In this document: piece after piece, positions 233 through 21,428 of the stretch
Numbering within the stretch: the stretch's first letter is position 1
How the letters are laid out: every line of letters begins with the position of its first letter
From: a virus
Virus record (IMG/VR): IMGVR_UViG_3300048121_001641
Coordinates: 1 to 22,881 of that record
Direction: 5' to 3' (one strand)
DNA: 22,881 nucleotides
Program-made: the position numbers and the translations under genes
Notes under the pieces: generated by a model
Told to the model about the DNA's origin: nothing
The model's input: the letters and a program-made list of their open reading frames with translations, nothing else
Databases searched by the model: none

Positions 233-1840
233 ATGATCGAGAAGTATGTTGACTTCGGTGCAGAAGCTGGAGACAAATTAATTGAGGGTATCAATACTCT
301 CGCAAACGCTGTGAAAACAACTTTAGGGGCAGCAGGAAAAACAGTAATCATAGAGAACGAATTTGGTAGGGCACACGTCACTAAAGATGGTGTTACTGTA
401 GCTAAGAGCATCAACCTAACTCATCCTGTTATGCACATAGGAGCAGAGATTATTCGTGAGGCATCTATTAAGACCGCTGACAAGGCAGGAGATGGTACAA
501 CCACCTCTGTAGTCCTCGGACAGAAGTTAATCGAACTAGCAGTCGCTAAAGTGCGTTCTGACGACAAGATGAATGTTAGCGAATTCAGAGACAATCTAGA
601 TATGTTATCTAATAAGGTAATCGACTATATAGACGAAAACAAGAAGAAGGTAACAAAAAAAGATCTTGCTAACGTAGCATCGATATCAGCAAACAACGAC
701 AAGGAGCTGGGATCTATTATAGCAGACGCATTTAACAAGGTTGGATCAGATGGTGCTGTGTCAGTAGAGACATCCCCCACAAACAATACATACGTAAAGG
801 TGGTGGAAGGTACAAGAATGAAGAGAGGATATATAAGTCCGTATTTAATAACAGACAAAGAAAAGTCTACCTCAACACTAGAGAACCCATTTGTATTGTT
901 ATCAGACAAGAAGGTGTCTAAGTGGGATGATATTAAATTTTACCTTGAAGTATCTATCACAAAAAAACGACCTATATTAATTGTAGCCGATATTGATCAG
1001 GCTGTAATGGCAAACATAAACACCAACAAGCTACGAGGAGCTCTTGACATTAATGTGGTGGCTCCTGAGGGAGTGGGCAATAATCGCCTGGAGTTACTTA
1101 ATGACTTAGCCGTAATGACAGGGGCTGTCGTAGTTTCTGATGACACTGGTGTGGATTGGAATAATATGAGTCTAGATAACCTGGGTTCAGCGAAGAAGGT
1201 AACCTCATCTGCAGGACAAACTATCATTACATTGAATGGTTCTACCAAAGATGAAGTTAAGAAGCAAGCAGAGACCGTTAGAGCGATTCTAGAGAACAAA
1301 GAAGATAAACCTAACATATGGCACCACAAAGATCGTTTATCACGATTAGCAGGCGGTGTAGCGACTATATATGTAGGTGCGTATACAGAAGTTGAGTTAA
1401 AGGAAAAGAAAGACCGTGTAGATGATGCTATAAGTGCTACACGAGCTGCTCTTGAAGAAGGGGTAGTTCCAGGAGGTGGGTCTTCGCTTCTGCATGCGAG
1501 CTCACATATACTATCAGAGTATAGAGGTAAGAAACTTACTAAGACCTTAGATGCTGCTATAGAAACTATATGCTTCGCATTGTTGTCACCTATTGAAACA
1601 ATAATGACTAACTCTGGATTGGATTTAGTGGATGTAGATGAAAAGGTAAGAGAGATAGGAGAGCGTGGATTTAAAATAGGATACGATGTCAAGAAACGAG
1701 AAATCGTTGACATGTATAAGTCTGGAGTAATTGATCCTGCTAAGGTGACTAAGAATGCATTCTCAAACGCAATGTCTGTTGCACAGATTGTATTACAGAC
1801 AAACTGTATAGTAACTAACAAGAGAGAAGACAAGTCATGA
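233..1840 (+). CDS. groEL: Phage-encoded chaperonin GroEL (Cpn60)
   Basis: A 535-residue group I chaperonin. It would form the ATP-driven folding ring and work with a GroES cap in the host cytoplasm. Seen directly: the equatorial ATP-site signature AGDGTTTSVV puts the catalytic aspartate at D87; TKDGVTVAK gives D52; and DRVDDAISATRAALEEG gives D397/D398. D52, D87 and D398 carry the same numbers as the key E. coli GroEL aspartates. VVPGGGSSLL also matches the family. The apical domain is more divergent: the usual KAPGFGDRRKAML stretch reads VVAPEGVGNNRLELL. The C-terminus ends in TNKREDKS and lacks the Gly-Gly-Met tail of cellular GroEL. The start has an A-rich leader (215-232). Its stop overlaps the groES start by ATGA at 1837-1840, so the two are probably translationally coupled. 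Fully intact, not a remnant. Confidence 0.96.
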   Translation: MIEKYVDFGAEAGDKLIEGINTLANAVKTTLGAAGKTVIIENEFGRAHVTKDGVTVAKSINLTHPVMHIGAEIIREASIKTADKAGDGTTTSVVLGQKLIELAVAKVRSDDKMNVSEFRDNLDMLSNKVIDYIDENKKKVTKKDLANVASISANNDKELGSIIADAFNKVGSDGAVSVETSPTNNTYVKVVEGTRMKRGYISPYLITDKEKSTSTLENPFVLLSDKKVSKWDDIKFYLEVSITKKRPILIVADIDQAVMANINTNKLRGALDINVVAPEGVGNNRLELLNDLAVMTGAVVVSDDTGVDWNNMSLDNLGSAKKVTSSAGQTIITLNGSTKDEVKKQAETVRAILENKEDKPNIWHHKDRLSRLAGGVATIYVGAYTEVELKEKKDRVDDAISATRAALEEGVVPGGGSSLLHASSHILSEYRGKKLTKTLDAAIETICFALLSPIETIMTNSGLDLVDVDEKVREIGERGFKIGYDVKKREIVDMYKSGVIDPAKVTKNAFSNAMSVAQIVLQTNCIVTNKREDKS

Positions 1841-2094
1841 AAGCGTTAGGAGACAAAGTACTACTGAAAAGAGTAGAAGAAGAAGTAAAAGACAGTTTAG
1901 GTTTGGTAGTAACCGAACTAACAGATAAAGACGTTAGACATAAGCGAGCTGCTGTAGTTAGTGTGGGTGACAAAGTAGTTGGACTAAATGAAGGAGACGA
2001 AGTGTTGTATGATATGGCAGCTGGCTCTAGCGTTAGAATTAAAGGACAGACCTATATAATTATACCAGAATTCAAGATAGATATACTGCTCTAG
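1837..2094 (+). CDS. groES: Phage-encoded co-chaperonin GroES (Cpn10)
   Basis: An 85-residue Cpn10-family protein, expected to form the seven-subunit lid of the GroEL chamber. It starts like the family (LGDKVLLKRVEEE, residues 4-16). The segment EVKDSLGLVVTELTDKD (about residues 16-32) lies where the mobile loop sits, with GLVV (22-25) in place of the GroEL-contacting GIVL. It then follows the family fold through VVSVGD, NEGDEVLYD and a terminal IIIPEFKIDIL. Compared with E. coli GroES (97 residues), the stretch between VSVGD and EGDEV is about nine residues short, which removes most of the roof hairpin; T4 gp31 also lacks this hairpin. It is coupled to groEL by a 4-base overlap. The order groEL-groES is the reverse of the usual bacterial groES-groEL operon. 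Confidence 0.9.
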   Translation: MKALGDKVLLKRVEEEVKDSLGLVVTELTDKDVRHKRAAVVSVGDKVVGLNEGDEVLYDMAAGSSVRIKGQTYIIIPEFKIDILL

Positions 2095-12242: not shown

Positions 12243-15200
12243 ATGGCAGGCAGTCTATCCGATAAGGCTATATTCATATATGACATTTTCTTTAGTGCAG
12301 ATATCACTCAAGGGCAGCTTGACAGTCAAATCAAACAGTCCTCTTTATTTAGATTAGCATTTGAAGAGGTTATATCTTATCCCAACCTTTTAGACCAAAT
12401 GAAAGCTCACGACAGGTACGATGAGCTTATTGGTATCGGAACCGAGGCATATAATATGATTGCCTCAAACGTTACGAGAGAAGAAAATTCTAAGTTAGAA
12501 GCAAATTGCTTTATTTTTATAACTGACGAAAACCATGATGCTCAGGATTTTTCTGACTTTCTTGGCACAGTTTCAGGACATATTGGATTTGGTACAATTA
12601 TAAATAATCCAAAAACCTCTTATGATATAGCTGATAATTCACATGCAGTTGATTTAATATTAGGTAATGAAGACGCTATAGATGCTTTATTGAACTCTCC
12701 AAATGGACTTAATGCTTTTGGGAAGAACCCAACCTCACAGATAAAAATATATCAAAACGAACAGGTCTTTAAGGCTTTAAGAGCTTCTCTTAGATTTAAT
12801 CAACAGGGTGTAGCTCCTGGGGTATTTTCTACAGGACTTCAGCGTTACATGAAAAAACATGGGGATAAGTACGTATACCTAGAAGGGGGAACAAATATTA
12901 TGTACATATCTGAGGACATGTATAACTGGCAGAAAATAATTGTGCCAAATGACAGTACAGGCAATACGTTTAATCTTGCATACGAACAACATCATGGAGA
13001 CATAGTTGGTTATGATAAATTAAACAGAGCATGGTTTTTCATATCACGGAGAAATACTGCTAAAATAAAATGGACGAAAGATTTTGTTGAGTGGTTTGAT
13101 GTACAACATGTTGTAGGTAACACATACATGAGAACACTTTCAAGTTGGGATGACAAAATATGGTTTTACGACTATACTTCAAGTAATAATTGGCAGCTTT
13201 CTTATTTACAAATGGAAGAAGGTGCTACTGCATATTCTCCTAAAACAGTTCCTAACCCAAATCAAATATCTGTTTATGGTAAAGCTCCAGAAGATGACGA
13301 CTACCCATACATGATATGGCATGACGTAAATTACAACTGGAAGCACATGAATAAACAAGGGGAGTTTCCTTATCGTGTAACAGATCAAAACGATTGGTTT
13401 TATGCCCATGATGGATCTGCCAACAGAAGTACTAGAGGTATAACATTTAATAACGGATACTTCTTTATTACGTTTGGAGTTAGTGGTCAAATGGGGATTA
13501 CAAGACTTGACCTCACACATGACAACGATGTATTGTGGACATGGAGTTCTAGAGATGTAGATGCTTCTGGAGCTAAGGTTACTTACTGGTATAATTACGA
13601 AACAAATGATTATATGCAGGTTAGTTATGCCAATGGAGTCTATATAGTTCCAATAAACGGAGGTTATGCTACTAGTATAAATGGCGTTGTTTGGGATGAG
13701 CAACTTTTTGATGTCACATATATTTTTAATGTAAAAGGAGCTGACGAAAGAGGTTTTTATGGAAATGTTCCAGGAACAAATTTTGTAATTACGTCTTATG
13801 ATGCTAGTATAGCAGCTTCTGGTGAGCCCACAACAACAACCTCTACAACAACAGCAGCACCTACAAATTTACCAGAAGGACTGACGGAACTTGAATGCTT
13901 AATTGACACAACAGAAGCAAGAGTTGTTGAATACAATGGTCTTAAAATGGTCTTTAATGACAAAGACTATTATGAAAACACAAACTATGTTGTAACAAAT
14001 GGACAATACAAGATATTAAACGTACCAGAGCAATATCCTATAGCTGTACTAAACTACGGCAAGTTTAATGAAGTAACTTATACAGGATTACCAACAAAGA
14101 AACATCAAATTAAGGTAAGAGGAACAGATGCTGACTATGTATACGATTTCTTTTATGGAGATGTCACTATAAATGTAAAAGGTAATTTTGAAACAGTAAG
14201 TTTATATTACTACAAAACTCCTACTAAGCAAGGATATCTTGGCATGGAGAAAATATTAGTGCATCAAGATTATTTGACTGCTGATGGGAGCACTGCTTCA
14301 GATATAACAAATAAAGTCAGTGATACTAGCATATATTCATCTTCTGTAAGAAACTTTGACTGTGTAGGAAACGAAGCGTTAGAACAAACGGATTTAACTA
14401 CAATCCCAACATTAGTAACGCCAACTACTACTACAACTCCTGTATATTCTCATGTATTTGATCCTCAAACAACAACCACAAGTACGACTATTAATTTAGG
14501 GGATCAAAATTATACTACACCTATACCATTAACTCCTACAGAGTATGACATTGTTCTTGATGGACCAACTGGTACTGATTTAAAATTACAAGGTCAATCT
14601 GGAACATTTGCAGATTTAAATGCTGCAGGATTTAGAGCTGTATTAAGAGCTGGTACGTACGTATTTAATGCACCAGTAGATACAGATGGTGAGGGTGTCG
14701 CAATCGCTTTTGAAGGAGCAACAAGTTCACCTTATTTTGGACCTCAGCATTCTAACATAAGTTATAGCGGTGATTTTTACAAGAGAAGCACAAAAGGAAT
14801 TGATGGAATTCCATACTATTTTTATCATGGAGAAATTGTTGTCGTAGTTGACGCTCCTTTCCAAACAGTAAACATAGTTCCTTATGATATTGTAACCTAC
14901 AATGCAGCAAACAATGCTTTCAGCTGGGACATAGTAGAAGCAACAACTCCAACAACAACAGCAGCTCCAACAACAAGCACAACAACAGATCCAGGATTGA
15001 CATACACTAAGTGTATGAATTCTCAGCCTGTAATTACGCATGATGGTACAAACGTTTTATTTGATGGAGAATATCAATCAAATGTAAAACAGGGAATGAA
15101 TCAGGGAACATATATATTTAAAAATGTCCCTCAGTCAGCTCCAATGGCTATTTTAAATTATGGCAAGTGGTCATCAATATCTTATACTGGTGAGCCAATG

Positions 15201-15872
15201 AAAAGCATCACACACACAGCAGCAGACGGTCATCAGTATTCGTTTTACTATGGTGATATAACTGTCAATGTAAATGGTGACTTTGGAATTATTAGCTACG
15301 AGACAAGTACGTTTAACTATTCTGGGGGAGAAAACAGACTCATTTATTCTAGTGTATGTCCTGTGTCTAATATACCAACAACAAGCACAACAATAAGACC
15401 CACAACAACAACTACATTGTTATCAAATAGTATTCTTGCTGAACCTACTACAACAATTACTACTGCACAACCTACAACAACTAGTACAACATTAGGGGTG
15501 ATTTCTGAATCAGATAATTGTTTGGTTAGTGGTTCTACAGGAAACACTGTAGCATATACTGGAGGTGTCTATGTGTTTAATGGAGTTAGTGGTGTATATG
15601 GTATGACAACTGGAACATATATATTTAAGAATGTAAGTGCATCACATCCGATTGCATTCCATAACTTTGGAAAAACAACAAACATTTCATATTCTGGACA
15701 ATACAGCCAAGGAACTAAACTAGGACTAGATGGAAACAGTTATCCTTATTACTACGGAGACGTTACTGTTACTGTTAACGGAGACTTTGGTTTAATTAGT
15801 TATGAGTGCTGGTACCACGGATATATGGGAGGACGAAACAACTTAATTTACGATAATACAAACTGTACATAA
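12243..15872 (+). CDS. Giant modular adhesin/fibre with Thr/Pro linkers (1209 aa)
   Basis: Residues 1 to about 200 are a mostly helical attachment domain. Residues about 200-520 are aromatic-rich with repeated Sx(D/N)xxxW-like turns (YISEDMYNWQKI, WTKDFVEWFDV, YATSINGVVWDEQ), as in BNR/Asp-box beta-propellers; this is inference. From about 528 on, Thr/Pro linkers separate four related beta modules of about 110-130 residues, each with GxYxFxNVP...(N)xGK...YxG...YYGD(V/I)TVxVNGDFG features to varying degrees. The last module ends YECWYHGYMGG and keeps His1135 or His1140, Cys1189, His1192 and Met1195, which resembles a type-1 copper (cupredoxin) ligand set; the other modules have lost it. No signal peptide. 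Probably a receptor-binding or cell-surface-binding virion protein. Confidence 0.82.
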   Translation: MAGSLSDKAIFIYDIFFSADITQGQLDSQIKQSSLFRLAFEEVISYPNLLDQMKAHDRYDELIGIGTEAYNMIASNVTREENSKLEANCFIFITDENHDAQDFSDFLGTVSGHIGFGTIINNPKTSYDIADNSHAVDLILGNEDAIDALLNSPNGLNAFGKNPTSQIKIYQNEQVFKALRASLRFNQQGVAPGVFSTGLQRYMKKHGDKYVYLEGGTNIMYISEDMYNWQKIIVPNDSTGNTFNLAYEQHHGDIVGYDKLNRAWFFISRRNTAKIKWTKDFVEWFDVQHVVGNTYMRTLSSWDDKIWFYDYTSSNNWQLSYLQMEEGATAYSPKTVPNPNQISVYGKAPEDDDYPYMIWHDVNYNWKHMNKQGEFPYRVTDQNDWFYAHDGSANRSTRGITFNNGYFFITFGVSGQMGITRLDLTHDNDVLWTWSSRDVDASGAKVTYWYNYETNDYMQVSYANGVYIVPINGGYATSINGVVWDEQLFDVTYIFNVKGADERGFYGNVPGTNFVITSYDASIAASGEPTTTTSTTTAAPTNLPEGLTELECLIDTTEARVVEYNGLKMVFNDKDYYENTNYVVTNGQYKILNVPEQYPIAVLNYGKFNEVTYTGLPTKKHQIKVRGTDADYVYDFFYGDVTINVKGNFETVSLYYYKTPTKQGYLGMEKILVHQDYLTADGSTASDITNKVSDTSIYSSSVRNFDCVGNEALEQTDLTTIPTLVTPTTTTTPVYSHVFDPQTTTTSTTINLGDQNYTTPIPLTPTEYDIVLDGPTGTDLKLQGQSGTFADLNAAGFRAVLRAGTYVFNAPVDTDGEGVAIAFEGATSSPYFGPQHSNISYSGDFYKRSTKGIDGIPYYFYHGEIVVVVDAPFQTVNIVPYDIVTYNAANNAFSWDIVEATTPTTTAAPTTSTTTDPGLTYTKCMNSQPVITHDGTNVLFDGEYQSNVKQGMNQGTYIFKNVPQSAPMAILNYGKWSSISYTGEPMKSITHTAADGHQYSFYYGDITVNVNGDFGIISYETSTFNYSGGENRLIYSSVCPVSNIPTTSTTIRPTTTTTLLSNSILAEPTTTITTAQPTTTSTTLGVISESDNCLVSGSTGNTVAYTGGVYVFNGVSGVYGMTTGTYIFKNVSASHPIAFHNFGKTTNISYSGQYSQGTKLGLDGNSYPYYYGDVTVTVNGDFGLISYECWYHGYMGGRNNLIYDNTNCT
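13824..15492 (+). repeat. Thr/Pro linker-coding tracts (ACA/ACT-rich), five copies
   Basis: Low-complexity tracts lie near 13824-13866 (EPTTTTSTTTAAPT), 14418-14490 (two Thr runs around PVYSHVFDP), 14938-14995 (ATTPTTTAAPTTSTTTDP), 15370-15420 (IPTTSTTIRPTTTTT) and 15441-15492 (AEPTTTITTAQPTTTSTT). They fall exactly between the beta modules. A related tract ends the upstream gene near 12178-12212. They act as extended linkers in the protein, and in DNA they provide short homologies for module exchange. Confidence 0.8.
13868..15869 (+). repeat. Four diverged beta-module repeats (cupredoxin-like?)
   Basis: Module spans are roughly 13868-14275, 14545-14935, 14998-15360 and 15500-15869. Aligned anchors: GQYKILNVP / GTYVFNAPV / GTYIFKNVP / GTYIFKNVS; then VLNYGK / AFEGA / ILNYGK / FHNFGK; then FFYGDVTINVKGNFE / FYHGEIVVVVDAPFQ / FYYGDITVNVNGDFG / YYYGDVTVTVNGDFG. 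The third and fourth are closest. Only the fourth has the C-x2-H-x2-M end. Confidence 0.72.
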
Positions 15873-16374: not shown

Positions 16375-17208
16375 ATGGCAACACTTTCACAATTTTTTGG
16401 AGACGCAATAGCATCAGGACAATCAGAACACATAACGGACCCTAGAAAAATGGATTGGGTTGTCTTTAGACTTCCCTATACAAAAGTTAGGAGACAAACT
16501 TCTTACCACACTGGGCAAAGTAATTTTTGGGACTATAACCTGTTCTATTGTAATAGAGACACTACATCGACAGATATTGCATTCCCACTTGGCACAACTA
16601 TGACTTTACCAACTAATATGGATCCTACAAAGCTTGCAGATCCGACACTGAAGTGGGGTAACCAGATACGACTAACAGATGCTGATTTAGGAAACTTTGT
16701 TGAGCTTGCTAATGTAAGTGGGAAATCTGGATTTATATCAAGTATTATCGGACCAGGACAGCATGGGTATGTTGGTTCTGACTCTTTTACCGATATTAAA
16801 GTTATTTTAGATGGTGTAGAATATGTTTTTGAAGCACAGCATGCTACTTGGAATAACAGTCAAACTGTAGAGTATCAAAGACTAACTATGGGTTGTGTAA
16901 GTGGATCAGGAACATCAAACGGAGAAAGACACGACAGTTGGTGGGGTTATTGGACAATGGGTAACCAACGATATGATTATAATCCTGGTTTTTGGTATGG
17001 ACACAACAATATAGCCTATCAAATAGGAGCTGATTGTTTTATGCCACATCCATACGGAGCTGGTAAAACATACAAAGGATTGCGTTTTGAAAACTCTTTT
17101 CAGATTTACGTTAAAAACCACGGTGGACCTACAACACAGTCGACAACAAATTACGCTGATTATGCAGGAGCATATTGGAACTTTGATTACACTATTCCAG
17201 GATTTTAA
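16375..17208 (+). CDS. Minor structural protein, paralogue A (277 aa)
   Basis: It begins MATLSQFFGDAIASGQSEHI, a start shared by many phage fibre-region proteins. A central block reads ADLGNFVELANVSGKSGFIS then IIGPGQHG, followed by ILDGVEYVFEAQH, and the end is TTQSTTNYADYAGAYWNFDY then TIPGF. It is beta- and aromatic-rich with no enzyme motif. The next gene is a clear paralogue with the same N-terminus, central block and C-terminus, so this is a tandem duplication. It likely forms or decorates a virion fibre or adhesin. The internal region between the conserved blocks differs most. Confidence 0.78.
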   Translation: MATLSQFFGDAIASGQSEHITDPRKMDWVVFRLPYTKVRRQTSYHTGQSNFWDYNLFYCNRDTTSTDIAFPLGTTMTLPTNMDPTKLADPTLKWGNQIRLTDADLGNFVELANVSGKSGFISSIIGPGQHGYVGSDSFTDIKVILDGVEYVFEAQHATWNNSQTVEYQRLTMGCVSGSGTSNGERHDSWWGYWTMGNQRYDYNPGFWYGHNNIAYQIGADCFMPHPYGAGKTYKGLRFENSFQIYVKNHGGPTTQSTTNYADYAGAYWNFDYTIPGF

Positions 17209-17221
17209 AATATTATAAACT

Positions 17222-18100
17222 ATGGCAACACTTTCACAATTTTTTGGAGATGCAGTAGCTTCAGGACAGTCTGACTTTTTAACAGATCCAAGACAATTCC
17301 CAGCAGTATATTGTAGGTACCCAGGTATTAAAACTGCTGAAAATACATGGAGAAGAGCGGATGAGATATATTTTTGGGATGCTATGCATGCTTACATGAA
17401 TACCGACACCAACAATGACCTTGTTATTAACGGAGGGGACATTGATGGACCTTCGCCATCATGGAGCACAGGTGTTGTGAACACAAGCGTACCAAATTCA
17501 AATCAATCTTTTTTTGATCAAAGAAGAAGAGGTAACATAGTAAAGTTACAAGATGCTGATATGGGTAATTGGGTTGAAGTTGCTAATGTAACAGGTTCTT
17601 CTGGATATTTAGCTTGGGTTGTGGGACCAGGGCAAAACGGTCAGACCATAGGTGATCCAATGACTGGAGTAAAGATAATTGTAGATGGCGTAGAATATGA
17701 ATTTACAGCACAACACACTTATTACGACACACAAACCACAATAAATAGAGGGAGATTGGTTTGGGGATCTATTAGACAAGGCTCTGGAACAGGAAGTTGG
17801 GCTCCATCAATTAACACTTGGGGTGCATATGATGATCACGGTACTTACAGAAATAATGTGGGTAGGGGAATAGGATATGGTCATAATGGAATATACTATT
17901 CACCATATAGCGGATCATTTCAGTTGATTAACCCATGGGGTCTTGGTTTATTTCCAGGCACTACAGGTCTTAGATTTGAAAATTCAGTACAAGTTTTTGT
18001 GATGAATGGAGGTGCAAATGTAACTACACAGTCTACAGCTGAGTATTCACAATATGCATGTGCTGCCTGGACCTTTGATTACACTTTACCTGGATTCTAA
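17222..18100 (+). CDS. Minor structural protein, paralogue B (292 aa)
   Basis: Tandem paralogue of the preceding gene. It starts MATLSQFFGDAVASGQSDFL and keeps ADMGNWVEVANVTGSSGYLA, VVGPGQNG, IVDGVEYEFTAQH and the end TTQSTAEYSQYACAAWTFDY then TLPGF. The first 29 bases of both genes are identical, whereas the variable middle (residues about 40-100 and 165-225) has diverged and is 15 residues longer overall. This suggests duplication followed by specialisation, for example for different receptors or positions in a hetero-oligomer (inference). Only 13 bases separate the two genes. Confidence 0.78.
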   Translation: MATLSQFFGDAVASGQSDFLTDPRQFPAVYCRYPGIKTAENTWRRADEIYFWDAMHAYMNTDTNNDLVINGGDIDGPSPSWSTGVVNTSVPNSNQSFFDQRRRGNIVKLQDADMGNWVEVANVTGSSGYLAWVVGPGQNGQTIGDPMTGVKIIVDGVEYEFTAQHTYYDTQTTINRGRLVWGSIRQGSGTGSWAPSINTWGAYDDHGTYRNNVGRGIGYGHNGIYYSPYSGSFQLINPWGLGLFPGTTGLRFENSVQVFVMNGGANVTTQSTAEYSQYACAAWTFDYTLPGF

Positions 18101-18103
18101 TAA

Positions 18104-18322
18104 ATGAGTTACATTAGAAAAATATCCATAGGAGGAAACTATAAGGATGCAATGCATTATCTTGTGGGTAATTCTGTTATGGACGGAAGTTATAGTATAT
18201 ATGAAATAACTCAAGACAAGGACGGAACTTATAGTGTTTGGATAAAAAAAGATCAAGAAGTCACTAAGTGGAAAGACTTTAAAAATATACCAGTTACAAT
18301 CGAATATAATATAGATATATGA
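18104..18322 (+). CDS. Small conserved phage protein (72 aa)
   Basis: ATG 18104 follows the previous stop by 3 bases and the end overlaps the next start by ATGA (18319-18322). The product starts MSYIRKISIGGNYKDAMHYL, continues with YSIYEITQDKDGTYSVWIKK and ends WKDFKNIPVTIEYNIDI. The arrangement Y(I/V)RKI..G..YKDAMHY..G...W K.F...PV.IE.NI resembles small proteins found in marine Bacteroidota phages, with no assigned function. No membrane segment or Cys. It is translationally coupled to the GroES-like gene. Confidence 0.75.
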   Translation: MSYIRKISIGGNYKDAMHYLVGNSVMDGSYSIYEITQDKDGTYSVWIKKDQEVTKWKDFKNIPVTIEYNIDI

Positions 18323-18870
18323 AGCCACGCTATGGCACTTTAATCAAACCATTAGGACAAGAGTATAACAACACAAAAGAAATAAACGGCATAACATTAA
18401 TACAAAACACATCTATCGAGGATGTGGATTATGTAAACCGTATAGGTGTTGTTGTTAGTCCAAGAGATAACTCAGACCTTGTAGAAGGGGATTTAGTAGT
18501 TACTCATCACAATGTTTTCAGAACATACTACGATATGAAAGGAAACAAAAGAAAAAGCAATGAGTATATTAGAGATGGGTTGTATCTGGTAGAGGATAGT
18601 AAGATATATATGTATAACAGAGATGATAAGTGGAATACATATATGGACTATTGTTTTATAAAGCCAGTAGATTATAAGCAAGATGAATTGCTTTATAGGG
18701 CTGACAAGACAGAAGAGGACCATGTGGGTATTATAAAGTATATAAACCACAAGACACTTAAGCCAGGAGATAAAATAGCTTTTACTAAGAATAGCGAATA
18801 CAAATTTGTTATTGACGAAGAAAAACTATATCGCATGAGAAATAGAGATATTTGTATTAAATTAGATTAA
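18319..18870 (+). CDS. Tandem GroES-like (Cpn10-fold) co-chaperonin-like protein (183 aa)
   Basis: The first half (residues 1-110) follows the Cpn10 order: YGTLIKPLGQEYNNTKEING with ITLIQN (first strands and mobile-loop position), NRIGVVVSPRDNSDLVEGDL (G-V-V...V.EGD as in GroES GEVLAVG...KVGD), the unusual HHNVFRTYYDMKG, then YIRDGLYLVEDSKIYMY. The second half (residues 111-183) repeats it: YCFIKPVD, HVGIIKYINHKTLKPGDKIA, FTKNSEYKFVIDEEKLYRMR, NRDICIKL, very close to the GroES end (VGDKVxF...Vxxxxxxxxx(M)xxxDILA). Two Cpn10 folds in one chain recall chloroplast Cpn20. It is separate from the groES at 1837 and lies before the packaging genes. Role inferred: a co-chaperonin for capsid or fibre folding. 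No enzyme motif. Confidence 0.68.
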   Translation: MKPRYGTLIKPLGQEYNNTKEINGITLIQNTSIEDVDYVNRIGVVVSPRDNSDLVEGDLVVTHHNVFRTYYDMKGNKRKSNEYIRDGLYLVEDSKIYMYNRDDKWNTYMDYCFIKPVDYKQDELLYRADKTEEDHVGIIKYINHKTLKPGDKIAFTKNSEYKFVIDEEKLYRMRNRDICIKLD

Positions 18871-18959
18871 TGGAAAATCACTGGACAACAAATTCAACCT
18901 GGGAAGGATACACCTTTAATTATACACTTAAATGGCTGACACAAGAGAAACAATACTAA
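18870..18959 (+). CDS. Possible mini-gene (29 aa)
   Basis: ATG 18870 uses the last A of the preceding stop (TAATG), as at two other junctions in this window. The product is MENHWTTNSTWEGYTFNYTL then KWLTQEKQY, and it overlaps the next gene by 28 bases. It fills the 61-base gap between two real genes. There is no recognisable motif, so it may be chance. Confidence 0.3.
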   Translation: MENHWTTNSTWEGYTFNYTLKWLTQEKQY

Positions 18960-19231
18960 GAGTAATATCAGCTGGAGAAATAGCCGTAGAGGAGCTTATT
19001 AAGGTTGCAGAAGAGGGTATTATAACAGGACATCCAGATGATGACTTAGCAGCTGACAGATTGAAAAATGCAGCAGCTACAAAGAAACTAGCGATATTCG
19101 ATGCATTTGAAATATTGCAACGGATAGAAAATGAAAGAGAGAAGTTAAATGGCGAGACAGAGTCTAAAGAAAGTAAAGGAAAAGATACAGGATTCCAAAG
19201 CTTTGCAGAATCTAGAGGACGAAAGTCTTAA
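18932..19231 (+). CDS. Probable terminase small subunit
   Basis: A 99-residue, mostly helical, acidic protein immediately before the large terminase gene. Residues about 1-60 are helical (RETILRVISAGEIAVEELIK, then DDLAADRLKNAAATKKLAIF), and a long helix DAFEILQRIENEREKLNG would form an oligomerisation segment. Position, size and helical make-up fit a small terminase, which recognises phage DNA and stimulates TerL. I see no classic HTH, so the call rests mainly on context. The end (82 coding bases) overlaps the start of the TerL gene in another frame, a strong packing sign. Confidence 0.6.
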   Translation: MADTRETILRVISAGEIAVEELIKVAEEGIITGHPDDDLAADRLKNAAATKKLAIFDAFEILQRIENEREKLNGETESKESKGKDTGFQSFAESRGRKS

Positions 19232-21428
19232 CCTTATAAGATTTGTCGATCATATTGATCAAAAAGTAAGAGACAAATTAAATAAAGATAATGCTTGGAA
19301 GTATGGTTATAACCCTGAGCATGACGTAATTGTCATTAGTAAAACTGGTAAAATTGGCGAGGTAGTAGAGATACAAAATCTAAAAATAGCATTACCTTTG
19401 CAGCCGAAAAAAGTATACCAAAGAAGTGATGACAAATCAAAACAGTATTGGGAACCATCAGAGTATCCAAAAGAACTACAAAAGATCAAGACCATATTCC
19501 AGTGGAATGAGTACCCAAATGCATTCAAAGAGTCATGGGTCGATTACATTGAAGATGAGTTTGAAAGAAGAGAGAATGGTTATTGGTTTAAAAATAATGG
19601 TTTTCCTACTTATATCACTGGCACTCACTACATGTACTTACAGTGGACAAAAATCGATGTTGGGAAGCCAGAGTTCAGAGAATCAAACAGAATATTCTTT
19701 ATTTTCTGGGAAGCCTGTAAAGCAGACAACAGATGTTATGGTATGTGCTATCTCAAAAATAGACGAAGTGGATTCAGTTTCATGTCGTCAGGAGAAATCG
19801 TCAACCTTGCTACAATTACTTCAGATGCCAGATTTGGTATTTTATCTAAGTCAGGAGCCGATGCAAAAAAAATGTTCACCGATAAGGTCGTTCCAATATC
19901 AACGAACTATCCTTTTTTCTTCAAGCCTATCCAAGATGGTATGGATAGACCAAAAACAGAACTGGCATATAGGGTGCCTGCATCAAAGCTCACCAGAAGA
20001 TCTATTGCGGACACAGAAAATGAAGAAACGCTTACAGGACTCGATACAACAATTGACTGGAAGAACACTGGAGATAACTCCTACGATGGTGAAAAATTAC
20101 GACTCCTTGTCCACGATGAATCTGGAAAATGGGAACGTCCAGATAATATCCTCAACAACTGGCGTGTCACTAAAACTACACTAAGATTAGGTCGTAGGAT
20201 TATAGGTAAGTGTCTTATGGGATCTACCTGTAATGCAAGAGATAAGGGTGGTGACAATTTTAAAAAGCTTTACGAAGATTCTAATGTATTAGAGCGTAAT
20301 TCTAATGGACAGACTAAGAGTGGAATGTATTCTTTGTTTATTCCCATGGAATGGAATATGGAAGGTTTTATAGATGCATACGGTCATCCTGTATTCCATA
20401 CACCAGAGACTCCAATATTAGATGCTTATGATGAGTATATATACCAGGGTGTATTAGATTATTGGAACAACGAGGTTGATTCACTCAAGAATGATCCTGA
20501 TGCACTAAACGAATTCTACAGACAGTTTCCTAGAACAGAAAGCCACGCATTTAGAGACGAGGCACAAAATAGTCTATTTAACCTAACTAGGATATACGAA
20601 CAGATAGATTACAATGACAGTCTAGAAGGGCAGCGTGTTATCCAAAAAGGTAACTTTTCTTGGAAGGGTGGAGTTAGGGACACTGAAGTTGTATGGACAC
20701 CAGACAGAAACGGATCGTTTCATATAAGCTGGATACCTGATCAAAAGCTAAGAAACAACGTAGTAAAAAGGAACGGACTATTTTATCCAGGAAACGAACA
20801 TATAGGTTCTTTTGGATGTGACTCATATGATATCTCTGGAGTAGTTGGAGGAGGCGGATCTAAGGGTTCTTTGCATGGTCTTACTAAAATGAATTTAGAA
20901 GCCCCCTCAGACGTTTTCTTCTTAGAATATATATCAAGACCACAAACTGCCGAGATTTTCTATGAGAACGTGTTAATGAGCCTTGTATTCTATGGCATGC
21001 CTATACTTGTCGAGAATAACAAGCCAAGGTTATTATATTACCTAAAAAGTAGAGGTTATAGAGCGTTCTCTGTTTCCAGACCAGATAAACATAGAATGGA
21101 CTTATCGAAAACAGAAAAAGAACTAGGAGGTATACCATCTTCTAGCTCTGTAATTTCTATTCACGCTGAGGCAATTGAGTCTTACATTAATGAGCATGTA
21201 GGGCTAACCGAGGATACTATGGGTAAGATGTATTTTAACAGGACTTTATTGGACTGGGCAAATTATGATATTAATAAACGAACTAAGTTTGATGCAACGG
21301 TAAGTTCAGGATTGGCAATCATGGCTAACAACAAGTATGTGGCTAAACCTGCCAAAAACAATAACGAAATAAACATTACCTTTGCAAAGTACAACAATAA
21401 TGGTCGACTTAGTACAATAAGAGATTAA
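19149..21428 (+). CDS. terL: Terminase large subunit (DNA-packaging ATPase/nuclease)
   Basis: A 759-residue motor that pumps DNA into the prohead and cuts the concatemer. The ATPase part has a deviant Walker A, LKNRRSGFSF (residues 202-211, with RRSGFS in place of GKT), preceded by the adenine-side YITGTHYMYLQW region. Walker B LRLLVHDES has D323 and catalytic E324, followed by a coupling motif near GKCLMGSTCNA. The nuclease part begins near GSFGCDSYDISG with acidic D558. The PxF-type FYRQFPRTESHAF stretch is typical of TerL. It is longer than many TerL proteins, mainly through an N-terminal extension. I start at ATG 19149, inside the small-terminase gene; this gives full family coverage. Confidence 0.9.
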   Translation: MARQSLKKVKEKIQDSKALQNLEDESLNLIRFVDHIDQKVRDKLNKDNAWKYGYNPEHDVIVISKTGKIGEVVEIQNLKIALPLQPKKVYQRSDDKSKQYWEPSEYPKELQKIKTIFQWNEYPNAFKESWVDYIEDEFERRENGYWFKNNGFPTYITGTHYMYLQWTKIDVGKPEFRESNRIFFIFWEACKADNRCYGMCYLKNRRSGFSFMSSGEIVNLATITSDARFGILSKSGADAKKMFTDKVVPISTNYPFFFKPIQDGMDRPKTELAYRVPASKLTRRSIADTENEETLTGLDTTIDWKNTGDNSYDGEKLRLLVHDESGKWERPDNILNNWRVTKTTLRLGRRIIGKCLMGSTCNARDKGGDNFKKLYEDSNVLERNSNGQTKSGMYSLFIPMEWNMEGFIDAYGHPVFHTPETPILDAYDEYIYQGVLDYWNNEVDSLKNDPDALNEFYRQFPRTESHAFRDEAQNSLFNLTRIYEQIDYNDSLEGQRVIQKGNFSWKGGVRDTEVVWTPDRNGSFHISWIPDQKLRNNVVKRNGLFYPGNEHIGSFGCDSYDISGVVGGGGSKGSLHGLTKMNLEAPSDVFFLEYISRPQTAEIFYENVLMSLVFYGMPILVENNKPRLLYYLKSRGYRAFSVSRPDKHRMDLSKTEKELGGIPSSSSVISIHAEAIESYINEHVGLTEDTMGKMYFNRTLLDWANYDINKRTKFDATVSSGLAIMANNKYVAKPAKNNNEINITFAKYNNNGRLSTIRD

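Follow-up and report, generated by a model that had tools for sequence, protein, structure and literature searches.

We propose that a 183-aa protein encoded in the 22.9-kb virus record analysed here (the window, taken at its whole length) is a co-chaperonin of the Cpn20-like, tandem-Cpn10 type with virion assembly as its dedicated task, a reading to which we assign a probability of about 0.55. The family to which it belongs is a widespread but little-noticed phage version of the fused lid, and its likely job is to help virion proteins to fold. The phage is of the marine Bacteroidetes type. A preliminary description of this DNA had claimed a GroES-like protein of this length and position, made of two Cpn10-like halves as in chloroplast Cpn20 and encoded beside the packaging genes of a phage that already carries groEL and groES. 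The ORF list contains the gene as described, both chaperonin genes were found in the window, and the other elements of that claim were borne out as detailed below. The features discussed are listed in Table 1.

Table 1. Features of the window discussed in the text, with the evidence for each.
Feature	Coordinates	Strand	Evidence
Phage groEL, 535 aa	233..1840	+	PHROG_5725, E=5e-137; NCBIfam GroEL models
Phage groES, 85 aa, single Cpn10 domain	1837..2094	+	Pfam Cpn10, 46.8 bits, over cut-off
Conserved 72-aa ORF, no assigned function	18104..18322	+	directly upstream in 94/97 loci
Tandem Cpn10-like co-chaperonin gene (putative), 183 aa	18319..18870	+	PHROG_13932, AlphaFold2 model, Foldseek, dN/dS
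N-terminal Cpn10-like half, aa 1-110, diverged	18319..18648	+	mainly predicted structure; profile score above shuffles
Mobile-loop-like segment of N-half, aa 19-41, hydrophobic triplet aa 27-29	18373..18441	+	
HHNVFR motif, aa 63-68, after the 'GD' strand	18505..18522	+	alignment of 60 relatives
C-terminal Cpn10-like half, aa 111-183, lacking the mobile-loop hydrophobic triplet	18649..18867	+	Pfam Cpn10, hhalign
99-aa ORF between tandem gene and TerL	18932..19231	+	ORF list
Large terminase (TerL)	19149..21428	+	PHROG_6681, E=1e-169

The tandem gene is real and conserved. Its dN/dS against an 80% identical relative (locus L004) is about 0.08, a rough value as dS is high (about 1.9). The window protein matches PHROG_13932 ('co-chaperonin GroES') over nearly its full length (E=1.9e-17, aa 13-179 against positions 12-196 of 200), and the proteins of Calle_1 and phi18:3 match the same family with E-values of 5.6e-82 and 5.3e-102. 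It belongs to a clade bearing the HHN motif that is larger than the PHROG_13932 set from Callevirus and Baltivirus: a family-profile scan of the viral contigs in IMG/VR retrieved at least 592 loci encoding relatives. Isolate relatives in Callevirus (Calle, phi38:1), Elemovirus and Maribacter phage Panino are labelled 'chaperonin cpn10' or 'co-chaperonin GroES'. The family is already catalogued as 'co-chaperonin GroES', in PHROG_13932 and in RefSeq. That name is silent on the tandem architecture, and no text describing this architecture was found in the literature searched, of which coverage was incomplete. 'Chaperonin cpn10' is also listed among the core proteins of the Pervagoviridae (PMC8776804, 2021), where either of the two Cpn10 proteins may be meant.

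Many relatives, in a clade with proteins of 197-215 aa, carry a C-terminal tail (K..EYNPSWA) that is absent from the window protein and its clade; L062:10001-10603 and similar longer relatives are examples. This tail is possibly a docking peptide. Other relatives lie in contigs assigned to a variety of bacteria and even to archaea (L103-L132), nearly all in records titled as MAGs. These are probably mis-binned phage contigs, and no host was therefore deduced from them. Pfam matches to UPF0300, OB and S24 occurred in single members only and were dismissed as chance.

The tandem architecture is best seen in the predicted structure. A whole-chain AlphaFold2 model built from 60 relatives reached a mean pLDDT of 88.5 and a pTM of 0.80. 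With Foldseek, its best PDB match was chain R of 7EKQ (E=1.7e-5, TM 0.62, 202 alignment columns), followed by chain Q of the same entry (E=3.8e-4, TM 0.55, about 200 columns), in agreement with the Cpn20 analogy of the preliminary description. The matches ranked 3 to 34 were all Cpn10/GroES structures or a third 7EKQ chain, the GroES/Cpn10 structures aligning over about 90 columns each. 7EKQ is labelled CrClpP-S2c (Chlamydomonas) in the PDB; the algal ClpP complex carries CPN11, CPN20 and CPN23 (PMC8889267), and plastid subunits of the Cpn20 type consist of two tandem GroES-like domains (PMC5780408). The named match that ranked best in the viral library was the 'chaperonin cpn10' of phi18:3. 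Searches of the PDB by sequence were less informative: phmmer with the single sequence returned nothing meaningful, and the A2 profile gave weak GroES matches only (E about 0.3), together with an acyltransferase match through HHN.FR that was rejected as chance.

The two halves differ in how readily they are recognised. The C-half is, judged by profile comparison, a Cpn10 domain: it matches a phage-GroES profile with 93% probability (hhalign, E=4.5e-7). In the window protein its Pfam Cpn10 (PF00166) match, over aa 144-179, scores 15.0 bits, below the curated cut-off of 21.1, while the C-halves of Callevirus Calle_1 and phi38:1 exceed it with 24.1 bits. The N-half has no Pfam match, and its hit to the phage-GroES profile is weak (10% probability, score 21.3), although this score exceeded those of all 100 column-shuffled controls (maximum 19.5). 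The HMM-HMM comparison suggested earlier for each half thus gave a clear answer for the C-half and a faint one for the N-half. Modelled alone, the N-half reached a pLDDT of 87.9 and its 12 best PDB matches were all Cpn10/GroES, with E-values of 0.02 or worse; Cpn10/GroES structures were also among the best PDB matches of the whole-chain model, those of the N-half alone being weaker. A strongly diverged Cpn10 fold is therefore supported for the N-half, mainly by predicted structure. Profile comparison of the N-half with the C-half gave 3%, so that an internal repeat is undetectable and the duplication invisible in sequence. Taken together, the presence of two predicted Cpn10 halves in one chain is well supported.

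Two details appear to be new. In the alignment, the N-half seems to keep a mobile loop of the GroEL-binding type that the C-half has lost. In 49 of 60 relatives all three residues of the N-half triplet are hydrophobic, and in all 60 at least two of them are; the corresponding C-half loop (aa 118-135) is variable, with three consecutive hydrophobic residues in only 2/60. The N-half loop segment is among the lower-pLDDT blocks of the model (about 76-84), and its sequence (NT.IE...VN) shows a degree of conservation not usually expected where a loop is simply flexible. The other detail is the HHN.F motif, which appears to be lineage-specific: H63, H64, N65 and F67 are invariant in the 60 relatives and position 68 is R or K, whereas phi18:3 gp096 reads DVNAL at that place. 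The preliminary description had regarded HHNVFR as a conserved insertion. Its conservation stands; we do not call it an insertion, since GroES also has a segment at this place after the 'GD' strand.

The tandem gene lies among structural genes, and its linkage to the packaging module holds throughout the lineage and also in another phage family. A TerL-like ORF is found downstream of it in the window and in at least 96 of 97 loci, and an ORF of 72-75 aa directly upstream in 94/97. Two of the TerL matches (L016, L018) fall on the portal gene, in records that annotate TerL directly downstream of the tandem gene. In the window the stop codon of the upstream ORF overlaps the start of the tandem gene (ATGA); counts of ATGA were not accepted as evidence of overlap, as A is the usual first base of the second codon. 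The 99-aa ORF is, from its position, possibly a candidate small terminase subunit, and a gene of similar size occupies the same place in MW202828 and phi18:3. The 'ds99' matches at about +820 were discounted since they lie inside TerL, whose true start in the window may be further downstream than listed. In phi18:3, a member of another family (Pachyviridae), a short GroES is encoded by gp080, and the tandem gene gp096 is followed by a gene of the 100-aa class and by TerL; no GroEL was found in this phage at E<=1.

Of 27 records, 19 have GroEL, and exactly these 19 also have a short GroES above cut-off. The 27 include five full-length phage genomes, all within these 19, and many of the others are fragments. 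Phage groEL, short groES and the tandem gene occur together in 5/5 full-length relatives searched, as in the window. In the window groEL comes before groES, the two genes sharing 4 bases (ATGA at 1837). E. coli has the opposite order, groES-groEL; groEL comes first in most related loci.

The co-chaperonin reading draws on several of these results: the whole-chain match to the tandem-Cpn10 chains of 7EKQ, the profile homology of the C-half to GroES together with the Callevirus C-halves that pass the Pfam cut-off, the hydrophobic triplet kept in the N-half, the joint occurrence of GroEL and short GroES, the packaging-gene neighbourhood and the listing of a Cpn10 as a core protein of the Pervagoviridae. 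From fold and N-half loop, the N-halves would attach through their mobile loops to GroEL apical domains, of the phage or of the host, and the tandem protein would make up the whole lid or part of it, closing a chamber for the folding of a capsid or packaging protein, by analogy with the role of T4 gp31 for gp23. The preliminary description had raised a mixed or asymmetric cap, and one shared with the short GroES would be plausible. Three tandem chains and one short GroES, joined in a ring of seven domains, would present four loops, because only one of the two tandem domains keeps its loop. This arithmetic is a prediction, and four is the reported minimum: GroES needs at least four of its seven subunits to be functional in order to bind GroEL (Nojima 2008, as cited in PMC4242682). 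That this precise two-protein lid sits on the phage GroEL, making an asymmetric, client-specific chamber for head proteins parallel to and separate from plastid Cpn10/Cpn20, seems to us rather unlikely. It is speculation that the invariant HHN.F residues face the chamber or the client; a metal-binding role for HHN was considered as another possibility.

Several observations count against a co-chaperonin: the N-half can hardly be recognised from sequence; the conservation of its loop region is unusual; the C-half has no loop; a short GroES is already present in the phage; and phi18:3 has a tandem gene but no phage GroEL, a role that the host's GroEL could fill. In the main rival reading the protein has the Cpn10 fold but has given up its partnership with GroEL, and serves as a factor for assembly or packaging that binds the terminase, the portal or the capsid protein directly. 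The near-absolute linkage to packaging genes would suit such a factor, as would the separate canonical groES in every full-length relative, the lost C-half loop, and the lineage-specific invariant motif and highly conserved loop sequence. Gene order alone is a weak argument, however, as a folding helper for head proteins could also sit among head genes; moreover both halves keep the Cpn10 fold, and the N-half keeps a triplet of the GroEL-binding type in 49/60 relatives. We hold a direct factor to be possible but doubtful.

Its place among structural genes might also suggest that the protein is itself a part of the virion, a connector, head or tail component built of Cpn10 folds. The tandem protein carries no MS/MS virion flag in phi40:1 (in the region viewed) or phi18:3, where neighbouring portal and tail proteins are flagged. 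Non-detection is a weak argument, yet it is what would be expected of a folding helper, and we regard a virion component as quite improbable. Still less credible is a cap for another host ring complex such as ClpP, on the model of algal Cpn11/20/23 on chloroplast ClpP. The best structural match is indeed a Cpn20-type chain from that very complex (PMC8889267), but all that this shows is the tandem fold which the two have in common; there is no other pointer to ClpP, and the gene is located with head and packaging genes.

The proposed co-chaperonin resembles the Cpn20 of chloroplasts and apicoplasts in having two Cpn10-fold domains head to tail, in its best whole-length structural match (7EKQ) and in co-existing with single-domain Cpn10 partners. 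It differs by its low identity (about 13-15% in the Foldseek alignment), by the invariant HHN.F motif, and by its loops: apicomplexan cpn20 has mobile loops in both domains (PMC3542282), whereas the phage protein seems to keep one in the N-half only, with no C-half triplet in 58/60 relatives. Similarity is too low for a useful tree, and we assume that the phage and plastid proteins are separate fusions. Tandem Cpn10 proteins have been described as a plastid speciality, cpn20 being located in plant chloroplasts, algae and the apicoplast (PMC3542282, a study of the apicoplast form). Like T4 gp31 and other phage GroES proteins, the tandem protein would be a phage-encoded GroES fold presumed to help head proteins to fold; those have one domain, whereas the window phage has two fused domains plus separate groEL and groES. 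T4 uses the host GroEL. A phage lineage that encodes GroEL and GroES together with a tandem Cpn10 provides a compact and accessible model for three questions: what drives the evolution of fused lids, how a lid functions when its symmetry is mismatched or its loops are fewer, and in what way phages adapt chaperonins to the head proteins that they make.

Two further features of the window were noted. Just upstream of the packaging module, the adjacent ORFs 16375-17208 (277 aa) and 17222-18100 (292 aa) are paralogous, both starting with MATLSQFFGDA.ASGQS and ending with ..PGF, and represent a tandem duplication of possible fibre proteins. A 1209-aa ORF (12243-15872) contains repeated domains that are split by Thr-rich linkers and share GTYIFKNV- and YYGD.TV.VNGDFG-like sequence.
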